6,467 nucleotides of DNA from Myxococcales bacterium (GTDB lineage: Bacteria; Myxococcota; Bradymonadia; UBA7976; UBA1532), in assembly GCA_020430675.1 (NCBI GenBank), contig JAGQJJ010000240.1:1-6467 (forward strand). The letters are read 5' to 3'. The notes below the pieces were generated by a model. The model was not told the DNA's origin and ran no database searches. It saw nothing but the letters and a program-made list of their open reading frames with translations. Shown in pieces: positions 42 to 6,467 of this stretch; position 1 is the first letter of the stretch, and each line of letters starts with the position of its first letter. Made by a program: the position numbers and the translations under genes.

Positions 42-3000
42 TCTCGTCTCGCGGGCGACGCGCTCGATGGGCGGCAACGCGGCGCTCGTGGCGGCTTCGA
101 CCAACCGGGCCTGCGCCGCCACCGTCGTCGCGTCGAACAGCCTTCGCAGCGGCACCTCGACGCCCAACGACGAAGCGATGCGGCTCGCGACCTGCGTCGC
201 CCGCAGCGAGTGTCCGCCCAACTCGAAGAAGTCATCCTGCGCTCCGACCGAAACAACGCCGAGCACCTCGGCCCAAATGGCGGCGAGCGCTGCTTCGGTG
301 GCGGTGCGCGGCGCCACAAAACCCGCCGACAGCGCTTCGCGGTCCAGCGCGGGCGATGGCAGCGCGGCGCGGTCGATCTTGCCATTCGGTGTCAGCGGGA
401 GAGCGTCGAGCCAGACAAACGCCGATGGGATCATATAGTCGGGCAATGACTCGGCGAGATGACTGCGCAGCGCGCCGACCGAGGCGGCATCGCCGACCAG
501 CCACGCGACCAGCGCCGCGTCGCCGCTGTCATCGCCGTGGGTCAGCACCACGCATTCGCGCACCGATGGGTGCCCGCGCAGCGCCGCTTCGATCTCGCCC
601 AGCTCGATGCGGAAGCCACGCACCTTGACCTGGCGGTCGACGCGGCCCAGAAACTCGAGCTCGCCATCGGCACGCCACCGCGCACGGTCGCCGGTGCGAT
701 AGAGCCGGCTGCCCGGCGGGCCGAACGGGTCGGGTCGGAACCGCTCGGCGGTCAGGCCCGGGCGGCCCAGGTAGCCGCGGATGACCCCCGCGCCGCCAAC
801 GCAGATCTCGCCCGGCGCGTCGATGGGCACGGGATGTCCGTCGTCGCGCACGACATGCACGCTCAGGTCGGGCAAGGCTCTTCCGATGGGGCTCGCCGTG
901 CGCGCGCCGCGGTCGCCGTGGCGCATGCGCCGCAGGGTGACATGCACCGTCGTCTCGGTGATGCCATACATGTTCACGAGGCAGGGCTTCGATGCTCCGC
1001 GCGCGGCGAACCATGGGGCGAGCATGGCCGGATCGAGGGCTTCGCCGCCGAAGATGACCCAGCGCAGCGCCGGGCCAACCTCGTCTGGATCGACGGCGCG
1101 GATGAGCTGCCCGAAAGCGGACGGCGTCTGGTTGAGCACCGTGACGCCCTCGTCGTGCAGCAGGGCGGCAAAAGCGACCGGGTCTCGGCTGATCGCGTGG
1201 GGCACGATGACCACGCGGCCGCCCAGGCAGAGCGCGCCCCAGAGCTCCCAGACCGAGAAGTCGAAGGCAAACGAGTGGAAAAGCGTCCAGACATCTCCCG
1301 CGCCGAAGTGAAACTCGGCCGCAGCGACCGAGAGCAGCCGCGCGACCTGCCGGTGCGCGACACCGCATCCCTTGGGCCGGCCCGTCGAGCCCGAGGTGTA
1401 GATGACATAGGCCAGGTTGTCGGGCATCACCGGCGTGGGCCCATGGGCCCGTGGCGCCGGGCCGGGCTCCACCAGGTCGACCAGCAGCGCGTCGAGATCG
1501 GCCGCCCACGACCCATTCATCGTCGAACTTGTCACCAGGACGCGGACCCCGGCGTCGTCGACCATGGTGCGCAGGCGAGACTCGGGGTGGATGGGATCGA
1601 GCGGCACATAGGCGCCGCCCGCCGACAGGATGCCCACGATGCCCACCACCATCTCGATGGCACGGTCAAGGTAGATGCCGACCCGCGCCTCGGGTCCGAC
1701 GCCCAACGCGCGCAGGCGCCGGGCCACCGCTTCGGCGCGGTCGAACAACGCGCGATAGGTCAACGACGCCCCCGCGCAGACCACCGCGATGGCATCCGGC
1801 GTGCGCTGCACCTGCTCGGCAAACAGCGCGTGAATGCATGCCTCGTCGCGGAAGGGTCGGCGGGTGCCACCCCACTCGGCGAGCCGCGCCTTCTCTTCGG
1901 CGCTGATGACCTGCAACTCCGAGACGCGCTGTTCGGGGTCAGCCGCCATGGCAATGAGCGCGGTCTCCACCTGACGCCAAAGGCGTGCGATGAAGTCCTC
2001 ATCGTAGAGACTTGTCCGATACTCGATGCCACCGTGATAGCCACTCTCCCCCGGCACCAGCGAGACTGAGAGATCAAACTTCGCGGTGCCAGCGGGCGCG
2101 CCGTGGTGCGTGCCAACGAAGGCACCTTGCGGCGCGCCGAAGAGGCGACGGTCATGCCATGTACCATCGCCGACCTCGAAGGCAACCCGCAACAGCGGAT
2201 GGCGCGCGCCGCGGCCGGCGGCGTGGTCGAACCGCCCGATGATCTCGGCGAGCGGCAGCCGGCCATGCTCCACGGTCGCCCACATCTCGTCGCGCAACCG
2301 CGCGAGCCACGCGGCGACGGACTCATCGCCCACGATGCGCACGCGGTGTGGCAGCGTGCGCGCGAAGAAGCCCAGCATGTCGCGGCGCACCGCGTCTTCA
2401 CGGCCGTGCGCGATCAGCGCGACGGGGAACTCGTCCTGGCCGCTCTGGCGCGACAAGGCGAGGCCAAGGGCGCCGAACAGCGCCGTCACCGGCGTGCAGC
2501 CGACGCGGCGGGCCAGCGCGTCGAGGCCGGTCGAGGCCGCCGGGCCGAGCGCGATGCGGTGCTCCGCGCCCGAAGGCCCGTGCCCTGAAGTCGTGCGCGA
2601 TGGCATCAGATGGAGCGGCTCGAGCCCGACGAACTGCGCCCGCCAGAAGCCGCGCGCGTCTTTGGCCTCTTCGCTCGCAAGCCAATCGGTCTCGGCGCGT
2701 TGCACGTCGACAAACGAGCCGACCGGCGCGGTCGGCGGACTCTGAAGCCCCTGCGACAGCGCGGCATAGGTCGCCGTCAACTCGCTGAGGAACACGGCCA
2801 CCGACCAGCCATCGCCGACGCTGTGATGCCATGAAAAGGCCAGCCCGCTCTCATCGGCGCCCATGCGATACAGGCGGACCCGCAGGAGCGGCGCGTGGCT
2901 CAGGTCGAAAGGCTCGGCGAAGAGCGCCTGGGCGCGGCGCTCAAACGCGGCGAAGCGCTCGCCTGGCTCTTCGTTGGCCAGGTCGACGGCCTCGAAGTCC

Positions 3001-5264
3001 GGCTCGATCCGGTCGAAGATCTGCGCCCAGATGGCATCGCCGCGCTGCTCGAAAGCCGTGCGCAGCGCCGGGTGTCGCGCGGTGAGCACCGCCAGCGCCG
3101 CGCGAACGCGATGCGGGTCGACCGCCGCCGGGATCGTGAAGCCGGCAGCGAGGTTGCAGGCATGGCGCTCGTCGAGCAGCCGATCGAGCAGGAAGAGCCG
3201 CGCCGGCCCCTCCAACGCCGGTACGCGCTGGACCGCGCCATCACCTCGACCGGGCGGCTCGTCCTGTCGACCCGTCCACCAACCGGCGGCGCGCATCTCC
3301 AGGAAACTGCTCTGGACCGCTTCGATCAGGCGCTCGATGTGGGCATCGGTATGGGCGGACGAGAGGAAACAGGTGCCGCCCTCCCAGAAATAGACCCCGC
3401 GCAACAGGAGATGCGCGCCGAGAAGCTCGCCCCCCGGCGGCAGGACGAACCGGAACAGCGAGCCCGCGGTCGCGACCGAGGCCTGCAGGTCCATCTCAAG
3501 GAACCACCGGTTGAGGCGACCTGCCATCGCGCTGACGCGGGCGCTCAGGGTCTCGACCAGCGCCTCGCCCTCGCGCTCCAGCCGACCGAGGGCCGCGTGC
3601 GCGGCGGTCAGGGTGACCGCGTTCTTGCTGAACGTGCCGCCGAACATGATCCGCGGCACGGTCGGCGTGCTGCCGGCCGCGCGGGGACCGCCATCGATGG
3701 CATCGAGCCAATCGGCCCGGCCGGCGACCACGCCGATGGGCAGGCCGCACTCGCAGAAGGCGTTGCACACCGAGCCGTTGGGGCAGCGACCCACGCACAC
3801 GTCGCCGCCCAGGTCGCGGCAGTCGGGCGTGCGCGGCACGCACTGGCGGCAGTCGGGCCCGCATTGCTGGCCGGCGGGGCAGCGGTCGATGCACACGCCC
3901 GCGTCCAGATTGCACAAGGCCGGCACGCAGCCCTCGCAATCGGGATCGCAGACCAGGCCGGCGGCGCAGTTGTCGCTGCAGAAAGGCGGGTCGGGCGGCA
4001 CGGCCTGCTGGGCGCGGCAGGCGACCATCTCGGGTCCGCAGGCGGCGCAGTTGTTGTCGCAGGCCTGGCCGGGCGGGCAACGGTCGAGGCAGATGTTGTT
4101 GCGCACGTCGCAGCTCACCGCCTCGCAGCGCTGGCAGTTCTGGTCGCAGTCCGAGCCGAGCGGGCAGTTGTCCTGGCAGACGCCGCCCACATTGGCGCAG
4201 AACGGCACACATTGCATGCAGTCGTCGTCGCAGGTCTGGCCGTTGGGGCAGTTGCCCACGCAGATGCCCTGGCCGTTGAGGTTGCAGTCGCGCTCGGGCA
4301 CGCAGGCGCCGCAGGCGTCGTCGCAGCGGAAGCTGTCGGGGCAGCGGTCATCGCAGACGCCGTTCTCCAGCGTGCACAGGTCGGGCTCGAAGTCGCAACC
4401 CGAGCAGTCTTCGGCGCACTGGAAGCCGGGCAGGCATTCATCGAAGCACCGGTTGCCGGCCAACAGGCAGCCCCGGTCGGGCGGGGGGCCTTCGGGCGTG
4501 CATTGCGTGCAGGCCAGATCGCACTCGCTGCCGCGCGGGCAGCCGCCGGTGCACTGGTTGTTGCCGTCGAGCGCGCAGGCGATGGGCTGGCAGGCATCGC
4601 ACTCGCCGTTGCACTGCTGGCCCGGCGGGCACAGGTCGAAGCAGGTGCGCGAGTCGAGGCTGAAGCCGCAGCCATTGGGCGGCGGGGGCACGCAGCCCAG
4701 GCAGTCGGCATCGCAGACCAGCTCGCCGGGGCACGAGTCGATGCACAGGTCGAAGTCGCCGTCGCCGTTCTCGTCGATGCGGCGGCAATTCGGGCTGGGC
4801 AGGCGTGCGCACCCGCCGCAGAAGCGGTCGCAGCGCATGCCTTCGGGGCAAAGGTCGACGCAGGCGCCGTTCTCCTCATGGCAGGGCGGCACGCAGCGGC
4901 TGCAGTCGGGGTCGCATTGCATGCCTTCGGGGCAGGCATCGATGCACTGGCCCGCGCCGTTCTGCTGGCACGGCGACGGCGCCATGTCGGGCATGTCGGG
5001 CACATCGCGATCCATGGGCGGGCGCATGTCGATGATCTGTTGATCGACCGCGGCGTCGATGGTCGGCGGCGCGTCGGGGCGCATGTCGGTTGGCGCGCCG
5101 CGGTCGCTTCCGGTGTCGCGCCGGCCGCCGCCGATGCCGCCCTCGCTGCTCGCATCCTCGGTCATCCGCGAGCGGTTGCCGGAGTTGTCATCACAGCCGA
5201 TCAGCGCGCAGAGCAGCGCGGCGGTGAGCGTGATCGACGACGAGATGCGGGAAGAGCTGCTCAT
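1..5264 (-). CDS. Chimeric open frame: Cys-rich lipoprotein N-terminus joined in frame to NRPS (partial AMT-C-A(Thr)-PCP-C), 3' end outside window
   Basis: Codon-by-codon translation from the ATG at 5264 gives at least 1754 residues without a stop; the frame leaves the window at the left edge. Order: lipoprotein signal peptide (1-24), Asp/Met/Pro-rich linker (25-98), 13 six-Cys repeats (99-506), C-terminal part of a class III aminotransferase (507-662), condensation domain (about 680-1110), adenylation domain (about 1144-1635, threonine code), carrier protein (about 1649-1725, Ser1686) and the C1 motif of another condensation domain (1742-1754). All NRPS core motifs are intact. The ATG is chosen because it gives a complete signal peptide. 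The two halves do not fit together: one is exported and oxidised, the other is cytoplasmic, and the aminotransferase lacks its N-terminal two thirds. The reading frame itself is certain; that it encodes one real protein is doubtful. I think it is two genes joined by rearrangement or misassembly. Confidence 0.9.
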   Translation of the reverse strand, partial: MSSSSRISSSITLTAALLCALIGCDDNSGNRSRMTEDASSEGGIGGGRRDTGSDRGAPTDMRPDAPPTIDAAVDQQIIDMRPPMDRDVPDMPDMAPSPCQQNGAGQCIDACPEGMQCDPDCSRCVPPCHEENGACVDLCPEGMRCDRFCGGCARLPSPNCRRIDENGDGDFDLCIDSCPGELVCDADCLGCVPPPPNGCGFSLDSRTCFDLCPPGQQCNGECDACQPIACALDGNNQCTGGCPRGSECDLACTQCTPEGPPPDRGCLLAGNRCFDECLPGFQCAEDCSGCDFEPDLCTLENGVCDDRCPDSFRCDDACGACVPERDCNLNGQGICVGNCPNGQTCDDDCMQCVPFCANVGGVCQDNCPLGSDCDQNCQRCEAVSCDVRNNICLDRCPPGQACDNNCAACGPEMVACRAQQAVPPDPPFCSDNCAAGLVCDPDCEGCVPALCNLDAGVCIDRCPAGQQCGPDCRQCVPRTPDCRDLGGDVCVGRCPNGSVCNAFCECGLPIGVVAGRADWLDAIDGGPRAAGSTPTVPRIMFGGTFSKNAVTLTAAHAALGRLEREGEALVETLSARVSAMAGRLNRWFLEMDLQASVATAGSLFRFVLPPGGELLGAHLLLRGVYFWEGGTCFLSSAHTDAHIERLIEAVQSSFLEMRAAGWWTGRQDEPPGRGDGAVQRVPALEGPARLFLLDRLLDERHACNLAAGFTIPAAVDPHRVRAALAVLTARHPALRTAFEQRGDAIWAQIFDRIEPDFEAVDLANEEPGERFAAFERRAQALFAEPFDLSHAPLLRVRLYRMGADESGLAFSWHHSVGDGWSVAVFLSELTATYAALSQGLQSPPTAPVGSFVDVQRAETDWLASEEAKDARGFWRAQFVGLEPLHLMPSRTTSGHGPSGAEHRIALGPAASTGLDALARRVGCTPVTALFGALGLALSRQSGQDEFPVALIAHGREDAVRRDMLGFFARTLPHRVRIVGDESVAAWLARLRDEMWATVEHGRLPLAEIIGRFDHAAGRGARHPLLRVAFEVGDGTWHDRRLFGAPQGAFVGTHHGAPAGTAKFDLSVSLVPGESGYHGGIEYRTSLYDEDFIARLWRQVETALIAMAADPEQRVSELQVISAEEKARLAEWGGTRRPFRDEACIHALFAEQVQRTPDAIAVVCAGASLTYRALFDRAEAVARRLRALGVGPEARVGIYLDRAIEMVVGIVGILSAGGAYVPLDPIHPESRLRTMVDDAGVRVLVTSSTMNGSWAADLDALLVDLVEPGPAPRAHGPTPVMPDNLAYVIYTSGSTGRPKGCGVAHRQVARLLSVAAAEFHFGAGDVWTLFHSFAFDFSVWELWGALCLGGRVVIVPHAISRDPVAFAALLHDEGVTVLNQTPSAFGQLIRAVDPDEVGPALRWVIFGGEALDPAMLAPWFAARGASKPCLVNMYGITETTVHVTLRRMRHGDRGARTASPIGRALPDLSVHVVRDDGHPVPIDAPGEICVGGAGVIRGYLGRPGLTAERFRPDPFGPPGSRLYRTGDRARWRADGELEFLGRVDRQVKVRGFRIELGEIEAALRGHPSVRECVVLTHGDDSGDAALVAWLVGDAASVGALRSHLAESLPDYMIPSAFVWLDALPLTPNGKIDRAALPSPALDREALSAGFVAPRTATEAALAAIWAEVLGVVSVGAQDDFFELGGHSLRATQVASRIASSLGVEVPLRRLFDATTVAAQARLVEAATSAALPPIERVARETRLPLSFAQARMRFL
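90..320 (-). other. Peptidyl carrier protein (PCP/T) domain
   Basis: Residues about 1649-1725 form a carrier domain that holds the activated amino acid on a phosphopantetheine arm. The attachment motif D-D-F-F-E-L-G-G-H-S-L is intact and Ser1686 (207-209) is the modified serine. The L-G-G-H-S form, rather than L-G-G-D-S, is typical of carriers not followed by an epimerase, and the next visible motif is indeed the start of a condensation domain. The threonine is therefore likely to stay L. Confidence 0.93.
360..1835 (-). other. NRPS adenylation (A) domain, predicted threonine-activating
   Basis: Residues about 1144-1635 carry the full A1-A10 series: L-T-Y-R-A-L, G-G-A-Y-V-P-L-D, Y-T-S-G-S-T-G-R-P-K-G (from 1289), F-D-F-S-V-W-E, N-M-Y-G-I-T-E, G-E-I-C-V-G-G, Y-R-T-G-D-R-A-R, V-K-V-R-G-F-R-I-E-L and L-P-L-T-P-N-G-K. 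Aligned by eye to GrsA, the ten specificity positions are D1335, F1336, W1339, N1378, I1404, G1406, M1432, V1440, H1441 and K1629, i.e. DFWNIGMVHK. This is identical to the established threonine signature, so L-threonine is the expected substrate, adenylated with ATP and passed to the adjoining carrier protein. No methylation or oxidase insertion is seen between A8 and A10. Confidence 0.93.
1935..3227 (-). other. NRPS condensation (C) domain
   Basis: Residues about 680-1110 form a complete condensation domain, which makes the peptide bond between the upstream acyl donor and the amino acid on the downstream carrier. Landmarks in order: a C1-like segment (A-R-L-F-L-L-D-R-L-L), C2 R-H-P-A-L-R-T-A-F from residue 730, the catalytic H-H-S-V-G-D-G-W-S at 813-821 (second His 814, Asp818), a C4-like V-G-S-F-V-D-V-Q, C5-like M-L-G-F-F-A-R-T-L, a segment R-H-P-L-L-R-V-A-F and the late K-F-D-L-S motif. 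Every expected motif is present, so the domain looks functional. Its position right after an AMT fragment suggests that its native donor is a beta-amino acyl chain. Confidence 0.93.
3279..3746 (-). other. C-terminal fragment of an AMT (glutamate-1-semialdehyde aminotransferase-like) domain
   Basis: Residues 507-662 resemble the end of PLP-dependent class III aminotransferases used inside NRPS/PKS lines. Visible landmarks are G-L-P-I-G-V-V-A-G-R-A-D, then G-G-T-F-S-K-N (equivalent to the G-T-L-S-G-N segment of HemL, near the PLP phosphate), and F-L-S-S-A-H-T-D-A-H-I-E-R-L-I near the end. Intact domains are about 400 residues or more, and the Lys forming the Schiff base sits about five residues before the G-L-P-I-G equivalent (K265 in E. 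coli HemL, in L-G-K-I-I-G-G-G). The fragment starts after that point, so PLP-binding core and lysine are missing and it should be inactive. In mycosubtilin/iturin-type synthetases an AMT domain directly precedes a C domain, as here. V-P-R-I-M-F at the usual F-F-A-G position is a mild divergence. Confidence 0.85.
3741..3755. other. Junction between Cys-rich lipoprotein and NRPS/AMT sequence
   Basis: On the minus strand the protein reads N-A-F-C-E-C-G-L-P-I-G-V-V-A-G across this point (residues 501-515). Up to F-C-E it is the thirteenth Cys repeat; from G-L-P-I-G onward it is aminotransferase sequence. The Cys at 506 could belong to either side, so the breakpoint lies within a few codons of 3747-3752. 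The frame is preserved. Lys, Trp and Tyr, absent over the previous 506 residues, return at once and the dense Cys pattern stops. I see no IS end, target duplication or inverted repeat. The cause, misassembly or genomic rearrangement, cannot be decided from the sequence alone. Confidence 0.8.
3747..4970 (-). repeat. Thirteen tandem six-cysteine repeats (protein level)
   Basis: Residues 99-506 contain 78 Cys in 408 residues, in 13 units of about 25-38 residues. The consensus is C-x(5-13)-C-x3-C-x5-C-x3-C-x2-C, usually with Pro after the third Cys, Gly two residues later, and V-P after the last Cys; unit 7 reads C-T-L-E-N-G-V-C-D-D-R-C-P-D-S-F-R-C-D-D. Six Cys per unit suggests three disulfides each, which needs an oxidising compartment. 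The whole stretch 1-506 has no Lys, Trp or Tyr and only one His; Asp is abundant. I do not recognise a named domain; EGF-like or other small disulfide folds are possible. Unit 13 is damaged: its last two Cys are separated by one residue instead of two, exactly where the NRPS sequence begins. Confidence 0.9.
4749..4775 (-). other. Calcium-loop-like motif inside Cys repeat 3
   Basis: Residues 164-172 read D-E-N-G-D-G-D-F-D, matching the D-x-[DN]-x-D-G-x-x-D pattern of EF-hand, dockerin and thrombospondin type 3 calcium loops. It is an insertion between the first and second Cys of unit 3, making that unit longer than its neighbours. Calcium binding would suit an extracellular disulfide-rich protein, but the helices flanking a true EF-hand are not visible, so this rests on the motif alone. 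Confidence 0.5.
4971..5192 (-). other. Low-complexity Asp/Met/Pro linker
   Basis: Residues 25-98 follow the lipidated Cys and contain no Cys. They begin Gly/Ser/Arg-rich and become rich in Asp, Met and Pro, with repeated short units such as D-M-R-P and P-D-M-P-D-M. It is probably a disordered spacer holding the Cys-repeat region away from the membrane. Similar D-M-P linkers are, as I recall, common after the lipobox in surface lipoproteins of myxobacteria and their relatives, which is part of the taxonomic guess. Confidence 0.75.
5193..5264 (-). other. Lipoprotein signal peptide with lipobox
   Basis: The first 24 residues of the frame starting at 5264 have a short Ser/Arg n-region, a hydrophobic core (I-T-L-T-A-A-L-L-C-A-L-I) and the lipobox L-I-G-C, with Cys24 (5193-5195) as the expected lipidated residue. 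This is the classic signal for export by Sec and processing by signal peptidase II. Residues +2 and +3 are Asp-Asp. Asp at +2 retains lipoproteins in the inner membrane in E. coli, but sorting rules differ in other lineages, so the final membrane is not predicted. The leader fits the Cys repeats that follow and conflicts with the NRPS domains further on. Confidence 0.9.
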
Positions 5265-5307: not shown

Positions 5308-6467
5308 TCAGTAGCATGCCCCCCGCCCTTCGAGATCGCGACGACACCGCAGCGGGGGCGCGCAGTCGGCGTCGTCAGCGCAGAGGGGGGCACACACCCA
5401 CAAGGGTGCAGCGGGATCGCGGGCCAGATCCACACATCGTCCGGAGGGGCAGTGCGCATCGCTTGCGCAGGGCCGTCCGCAGCGCCCGTCGAGGTACGAC
5501 GCGACGCACCATCCCGACGCGCAGTCCGCGCCTTGGGCACAGGGGGCCAGCGGGGCACCCGGGCCCGCGGGCACGCAGGCGCCGACCGGCGCGTCGGGTT
5601 CGAGCGGCGCGCAGGCCTGGCCGTCGGGGCAGGCGCCGTCGTACAGCGCGCACGGCGCCCGGCAGCGGCGGCCATCGGCGCCTTCCAGGCAGGCGACCGC
5701 AGGCGCCGCGCACTCGGCATCGGCGGCGCAGGCCAGCCCGACCACCTCGCCGGCCGCCGGCTGGCATTCGCCTTCGAGCGCCTCGGGCGAGAGCGCGCAG
5801 GCTTCGTTTGCGCTGCATTGCGGCCCATCAAGGCGGCAGATGCCCACGCAGCGGCGGGCGCCGAGGCGGTCGCGGCAGGCGGTGCCCGCGGGGCAGGCGT
5901 CGCCTTCGGGGCAGGGGTCGGCGCAGCGGCGGCCGAGGCACAAGCCTGAGGCGCATTCGTCGCCCTGGGCGCAGACCGCGCCGGCTTCGGCGGGCCCGCT
6001 GGCCAGGCAGACCGCTGTGGTGCCGAGCGCGACGCAGCGCGCGCCTGCGGGGCATTCGTTCTGGCACAGCGCGCGGCATTGGCCCTCGAAGCAGGCGCCG
6101 CTGGCGCAGTCGGCGCCGATCAGGCAGGGCTCGCCCAGCGCGCCCGGACCGCGCTCGACGCAATGCGGCCCTTTGTCGTCGAAGACGGCGCACACCCGAC
6201 CCGGCCGGCAGTCGGCAGCGCTGGCGCAGCGCGGATGGCAGGCCTCGGCGGCGCAGAGGGTGGTCGCCGGGCAGCCGGCCTCGCAGTCGGGCAGGCAGCG
6301 GCCGGCGGTGCACATGAGGCCCGCGGCGCAGGCGGTCACCGACTCGCAGGCGGCGCCCTCGGCCAGCGGCAGCGGCGTGCACCACGCGCCCGTGCCGAAG
6401 TCGACGCAGCGCAGCCCCGCCGGGCACTCACCGGCGCAGGCCGCCAGGCAGCGGCCGTTCGCACACC
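5308..6467 (-). CDS. Cysteine-rich repeat protein, probably exported (5' end outside window)
   Basis: 385 residues are visible before the TGA at 5308-5310; the frame is already open at the right edge, so the true start and any signal peptide lie outside. It contains 58 Cys (15%), arranged in about five related units of roughly 50-90 residues built on G-x-x-C-x5-C-x-S-G-x-C followed by further Cys pairs such as C-P-x-G-x-x-C. The GTG at 6337-6339 is not a convincing start because the same Cys pattern continues upstream of it. The protein ends G-R-G-A-C-Y with no C-terminal membrane segment, LPXTG or MYXO-CTERM-like tail. High even-spaced Cys and scarcity of Lys point to an oxidised, cell-surface or secreted protein. 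The repeat type differs from that of the next gene, 43 bases downstream and in the same direction, with which it is probably cotranscribed. Function unknown. Confidence 0.88.
   Translation of the reverse strand, partial: CANGRCLAACAGECPAGLRCVDFGTGAWCTPLPLAEGAACESVTACAAGLMCTAGRCLPDCEAGCPATTLCAAEACHPRCASAADCRPGRVCAVFDDKGPHCVERGPGALGEPCLIGADCASGACFEGQCRALCQNECPAGARCVALGTTAVCLASGPAEAGAVCAQGDECASGLCLGRRCADPCPEGDACPAGTACRDRLGARRCVGICRLDGPQCSANEACALSPEALEGECQPAAGEVVGLACAADAECAAPAVACLEGADGRRCRAPCALYDGACPDGQACAPLEPDAPVGACVPAGPGAPLAPCAQGADCASGWCVASYLDGRCGRPCASDAHCPSGRCVDLARDPAAPLWVCAPLCADDADCAPPLRCRRDLEGRGACY
5314..6348 (-). repeat. About five degenerate Cys-rich units (protein level)
   Basis: Units begin at A-A-C-E-S-V-T-A-C, E-P-C-L-I-G-A-D-C, A-V-C-A-Q-G-D-E-C, L-A-C-A-A-D-A-E-C and A-P-C-A-Q-G-A-D-C. 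Three of them share C-x5-C-A-S-G-x-C almost exactly (C-A-S-G-A-C, C-A-S-G-L-C, C-A-S-G-W-C), the first and fourth are more diverged. Later Cys in each unit follow x-x-C-x3-C and C-P-x-G-x-x-C spacing, with variable loops of 8-12 residues. Duplication of an ancestral unit is the obvious origin. I cannot name the domain. Confidence 0.75.

Follow-up and report, generated by a model that had tools for sequence, protein, structure and literature searches.

Contig JAGQJJ010000240.1 of a Myxococcales bacterium (assembly GCA_020430675.1), analyzed here as a single window that is the entire 6467-bp contig, is probably an accidental chimera of two unrelated genes, a cysteine-rich lipoprotein-like gene and a nonribosomal peptide synthetase (NRPS) gene, and an artefact of library preparation or assembly is the origin that we favor. 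A minus-strand frame that opens at position 5264 runs for 1754 codons and is still open at the contig edge, in line with the original prediction of at least 1754 codons. That prediction also described a frame made of two dissimilar parts with a switch at 3741..3755, which agrees with what was found. Residues 1-506 contain 80 Cys, 78 in 13 repeats and another 2 in the signal peptide, and are free of Lys, Trp, and Tyr, while residues 507-1754, with aminotransferase (AMT) and NRPS sequence, are of ordinary composition (10 Cys, 8 Lys, 25 Trp, and 15 Tyr). The composition switches between residues 506 and 507, that is, between bases 3747 and 3746 and thus within the predicted range. A chimera is supported by this sharp change, by two incomplete partners, by a lysine missing from the aminotransferase, and by the failure to find a sister fusion among related proteins. 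The features of the fused frame are as follows:

3747..5264, minus strand: 5' part of the Cys-rich lipoprotein-like gene (residues 1-506), from the frame and composition
5193..5264, minus strand: signal peptide with what we take to be a lipobox, L-I-G-C24 (residues 21-24), found by eye from the lipobox motif
3747..4970, minus strand: 13 six-Cys repeats (residues 99-506), from composition and repeat count
3747..3821, minus strand: the 13th repeat, with a final Cys spacing of x1 where x2 is expected, from the repeat spacing
3746..3747, minus strand: the break, between residues 506 and 507, from alignment starts, Lys position, and repeat spacing
3279..3746, minus strand: C-terminal part of a class III (GSA-type) AMT (residues 507-662) without the lysine-bearing part, from a structure-sequence match and the Lys position
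1881..3200, minus strand: NRPS condensation domain (C; residues 689-1128), from Pfam
768..1823, minus strand: NRPS adenylation domain (A; residues 1148-1499), from Pfam
378..596, minus strand: AMP-binding C-terminal domain (A_C; residues 1557-1629), from Pfam
99..290, minus strand: peptidyl carrier domain (PCP; residues 1659-1722), from Pfam, after which the frame leaves the contig

On the NRPS side, the interruption is found at the start of the aminotransferase. Pfam (PF00202) detects no aminotransferase in the fused protein at E 0.001, nor in residues 507-690 alone at E 1. Despite this silence, the AMT part is real, as residues 507-662 match the AMT domain of mycosubtilin synthase, MycA (6kfm/6kfu), with E ~4e-28, and the sequence begins with GLPIGVVAG, as it does in MycA and in 40 relatives. 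In the MycA domain (6kfm/6kfr/6kfu), the match covers residues 295-454 of the 461 in the 6kfm chain; unlike that domain, the window has no equivalent of residues 1-294. When probes for the N-terminal part of the AMT, taken from three relatives, were searched against the window with tblastn, the best match reached E 0.18, while the C-terminal control gave 1.6e-39. A motif of the N-terminal half of the AMT occurs ahead of the break in 29 of 40 relatives, whereas the window has no copy, but it is given little weight because the remaining 11 relatives do not have it either.

In blastp, 36 of 41 AMT relatives start matching at residue 506 or 507, and the other five start at 486 (three proteins), 492 (one), and 600 (P0024). 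In the four relatives that start at 486-492, the alignment extends 15-21 residues into the Cys repeat, yet these proteins carry there the AMT motif with its Lys. All 40 relatives that cover this position have a Lys five residues before residue 507 (38 as GK and 2 as AK, within YGK or a variant of it), P0024 being left out of the count because its alignment starts past the break; the window has Ala at this position, -5 from GLPIG. Directly before residue 507, the relatives have G (32), A (5), or N (3), and the window has Cys. We take the Lys five residues before GLPIG to be the one that forms the Schiff base with pyridoxal 5'-phosphate. Since the domain seems to be truncated just past its lysine loop, it should not be an active aminotransferase. 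PMC3870968 reports conservation of the Schiff-base Lys in such embedded AMT domains, apart from exceptions that include some Methylobacterium domains with Thr.

Downstream of the AMT remnant, the C, A, and PCP domains of an NRPS elongation module were all detected. P0008 (JGI, 2938 aa, AMT-C-A-PCP), which has the top score over the NRPS module among the matches listed, is collinear with window residues 507-1719 at 40% identity. It differs from the window in that its AMT extends upstream with YGKIVGGGMPIG and is preceded by polyketide synthase (PKS) domains rather than by Cys repeats.

On the other side of the break, the sequence has the features of a putative lipoprotein, with a signal peptide ending in LIGC, an Asp/Pro-rich linker as judged by eye, and the Cys repeats. 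The last five Cys of a repeat are spaced C-x3-C-x5-C-x3-C-x2-C in 12 of the 13 window repeats and in all 17 repeats of P0003. The exception is the 13th window repeat, in which the final x1 spacing falls right at the break, so the claim of a broken last repeat holds. P0003 (1499 aa, with its 17 six-Cys repeats at the C-terminus) has the same repeat spacing and ~40% identity to the window; its best alignment to the Cys repeats ends at window residue 509, and a weaker one ends at 518. It differs from the window protein in its N-terminus, which has a carboxypeptidase-regulatory-like match below the Pfam cut-off, in its complete last repeat, and in having no NRPS domain among its Pfam matches.

Both partners had been proposed to be incomplete at one and the same point. 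This is right as regards the lost N-terminal part of the AMT and the cut last repeat, though the loss from the lipoprotein may have been as small as a few codons and the stop, considering that only five residues follow the final Cys of the array in P0003.

The six-Cys repeat (x3, x5, x3, x2; positions 3747-4970) corresponds to no Pfam family, and its sole relative found is P0003; it may be an undescribed repeat. A search with the lipoprotein part alone returned none of 1935 candidates at E 0.001, with only proteins of ~279-887 aa considered. P0003 scores strongly against this part in phmmer and is missing from that result because its 1499 aa exceeded the candidate size range.

A search for the join in other proteins was made with residues 300-720, which cross the break, against 5.8 billion proteins at a cut-off of E 0.001. 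The candidates were 7411 word-sharing proteins of ~965-3070 aa, so shorter or longer proteins with the same join would be missed. Besides the window's own protein, 42 proteins reached the cut-off, of which 41 match the AMT side only and one, P0003, the Cys side only; thus, among these 7411 candidates, none of the 42 spans both sides or shows the lipoprotein-AMT-C-A-PCP build that the original prediction had named as evidence of a conserved fusion. The fused protein has one member in the protein database, located on a single 6467-base contig, the window itself. Taken together, an AMT without its N-terminal part and without the lysine present in 40 of 40 relatives, a cut Cys repeat, and 0 fusions in 42 proteins fit two interrupted genes better than a designed fusion, as had been proposed. 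An automatic pipeline would label this frame a giant NRPS whose N-terminal domain is Cys-rich and new, and such entries mislead fusion-based predictions of function and NRPS catalogues.

In the scenario that we consider probable, the two genes, one for a Cys-rich lipoprotein-like protein and one for an AMT-C-A-PCP NRPS, may both be of Myxococcota origin and would have been joined at 3746/3747; the likeliest route is a chimeric molecule, or a misjoin in an assembly with thin coverage. The accident would thus have happened in the library or the assembly and not in the cell, and coverage was presumably thin. The in-frame outcome would need no selection, because about one third of the joins between same-strand genes can be expected to keep the frame. 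Misjoins in de Bruijn assembly require the two sequences to have a word of length k in common. Neither the 10 bases to the left of the break nor the 10 to its right occur again on the opposite side, the 8 bases to its right recur once on the left, and the longest word common to both sides anywhere (15 bases) lies away from the break. Assuming GGC as the codon for the glycine ahead of GLPIG, the AMT parent would have no more than about two bases in common with the window's TGC. With so few bases apparently shared, a k-mer-overlap misjoin is judged unlikely as the cause, and a chimeric molecule, a gap-closing error, or an illegitimate deletion is to be preferred.

Metagenome assembly is known to produce chimeric contigs (PMC7299287), and of the 475 chimeras from multiple displacement amplification (MDA) counted in PMC1855051, 406 were inverted and 69 were direct. 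Like these assembly and amplification chimeras, the window joins unrelated sequences, here on a short contig. The MDA chimeras of the latter source were mostly inverted, and the use of MDA is nowhere indicated for the window DNA.

The DNA upstream of the lipoprotein gene bears on the origin of the two sides and contains one further feature:

5308..6465, minus strand: second Cys-rich protein (385 aa), complete at its 3' end and truncated by the contig edge, from the frame and relatives

Up to the break, the DNA of the lipoprotein side appears natural, since the lipoprotein start follows the stop of this gene after 43 bases on the same strand, and the last 15 residues of its product are identical to those of P0046. 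No Pfam or NCBIfam family was found for the second Cys-rich protein. Its relatives, scored among the 7995 candidates sharing most words, are P0046 (50%, on a contig of 9306 bases) and P0047 (37%); the latter comes from a Myxococcales metagenome-assembled genome (MAG), and its start is lipobox-like by eye.

On the NRPS side, P0024 also comes from a Myxococcales MAG and is 64% identical to the AMT end over 73 residues and 37% identical over the module. In the break-spanning search, P0004 (Crocosphaera MAG), P0015 (Sphaerotilus), and others outscore it, because its alignment begins only at residue 600. The P0024 synthase, on a contig of 9738 bases, also begins inside the AMT, at a different place, equivalent to ~residue 598.

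Several observations weigh against a chimera made outside the cell. The G+C content is 0.68-0.73 on the NRPS side, 0.70-0.74 in the lipoprotein, and 0.75-0.79 in the second Cys-rich gene, and it shows no step at the break. Relatives from Myxococcales MAGs are found on both sides (P0024 and P0047), so a rearrangement inside one genome fits too, and the absence of a 10-base recurrence across the break speaks against the k-mer route to an assembly error. Codon use gives no clear sign of two genomes either. Synonymous codon use of the lipoprotein departs from that of the NRPS (p 0.0008; chi-square 53.5 with 25 df). No difference is seen when the second Cys-rich gene is compared with the NRPS (p 0.22) or with the lipoprotein (p 0.33), or when one half of the NRPS is set against the other (p 0.13). 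The two sides of the break could not be assigned to different genomes in this way. Both may come from Myxococcota, and possibly even from one genome.

The lack of a G+C step and the Myxococcales relatives on both sides agree with a real and recent event of illegitimate deletion or rearrangement in the cell, in which the lipoprotein gene would have lost its end and the NRPS gene its start, leaving behind a non-functional fused frame. Illegitimate joining usually shows little homology, and little homology appears to exist at this break; in addition, both genes lie on the same strand. We regard such an event as a possible, though less probable, origin of the contig. No other protein was found with the join, and a scan of genome_contigs with the AMT end turned up nothing closely related: its 56 pattern matches contained two relatives only, both Denitrovibrio MAG loci with 34-37% identity. 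Moreover, an accident that ruins two genes would probably not persist for long in a cell, whereas a chimeric contig does not have to survive at all. The artefact is favored over a real deletion because the join wrecks two genes and was seen once, on a short contig.

A functional fusion, in which the Cys-rich lipoprotein leader anchors or exports the NRPS module, is very improbable, even though the frame is open for 1754 codons, begins with a lipobox signal peptide, and encodes the C, A, and PCP domains in full. Against it stand an AMT without its N-terminal part and lysine, the broken last Cys repeat, the lack of the join in any relative found, and the prospect of an ATP-dependent synthase being sent outside the cytoplasm. 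An NRPS exported by the Sec pathway would be without ATP and without its carrier-activating enzyme, and a narrow literature search found no precedent for an exported NRPS. If the join were both real and functional, it would represent such an exported enzyme. A version in which the fusion is expressed and the leader carries the module to the envelope, with the dead AMT remnant as a linker only, is more improbable still. Hardly any credence can be given to a naturally shortened AMT, consisting of the C-terminal part only, as a trait of this NRPS type onto which the lipoprotein end was joined: P0024 likewise begins within the AMT, but its start, on a contig of 9738 bases, may be cut or reflect a start-call error and differs from that of the window protein, and in 40 of 41 AMT relatives the domain carries on past the break into the upstream part, conserved lysine included.

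In viral_contigs, 32 pattern matches yielded no relative. Among plasmids, no match was found to the lipoprotein part (E up to 0.001) or to P0003 (E up to 1e-5). The NRPS part matches 2991 plasmid records; in all but a few of the best 60, the matched region either has an NRPS or adenylation name or is unannotated; the one Planktothrix plasmid inspected carries annotated NRPS/PKS genes.

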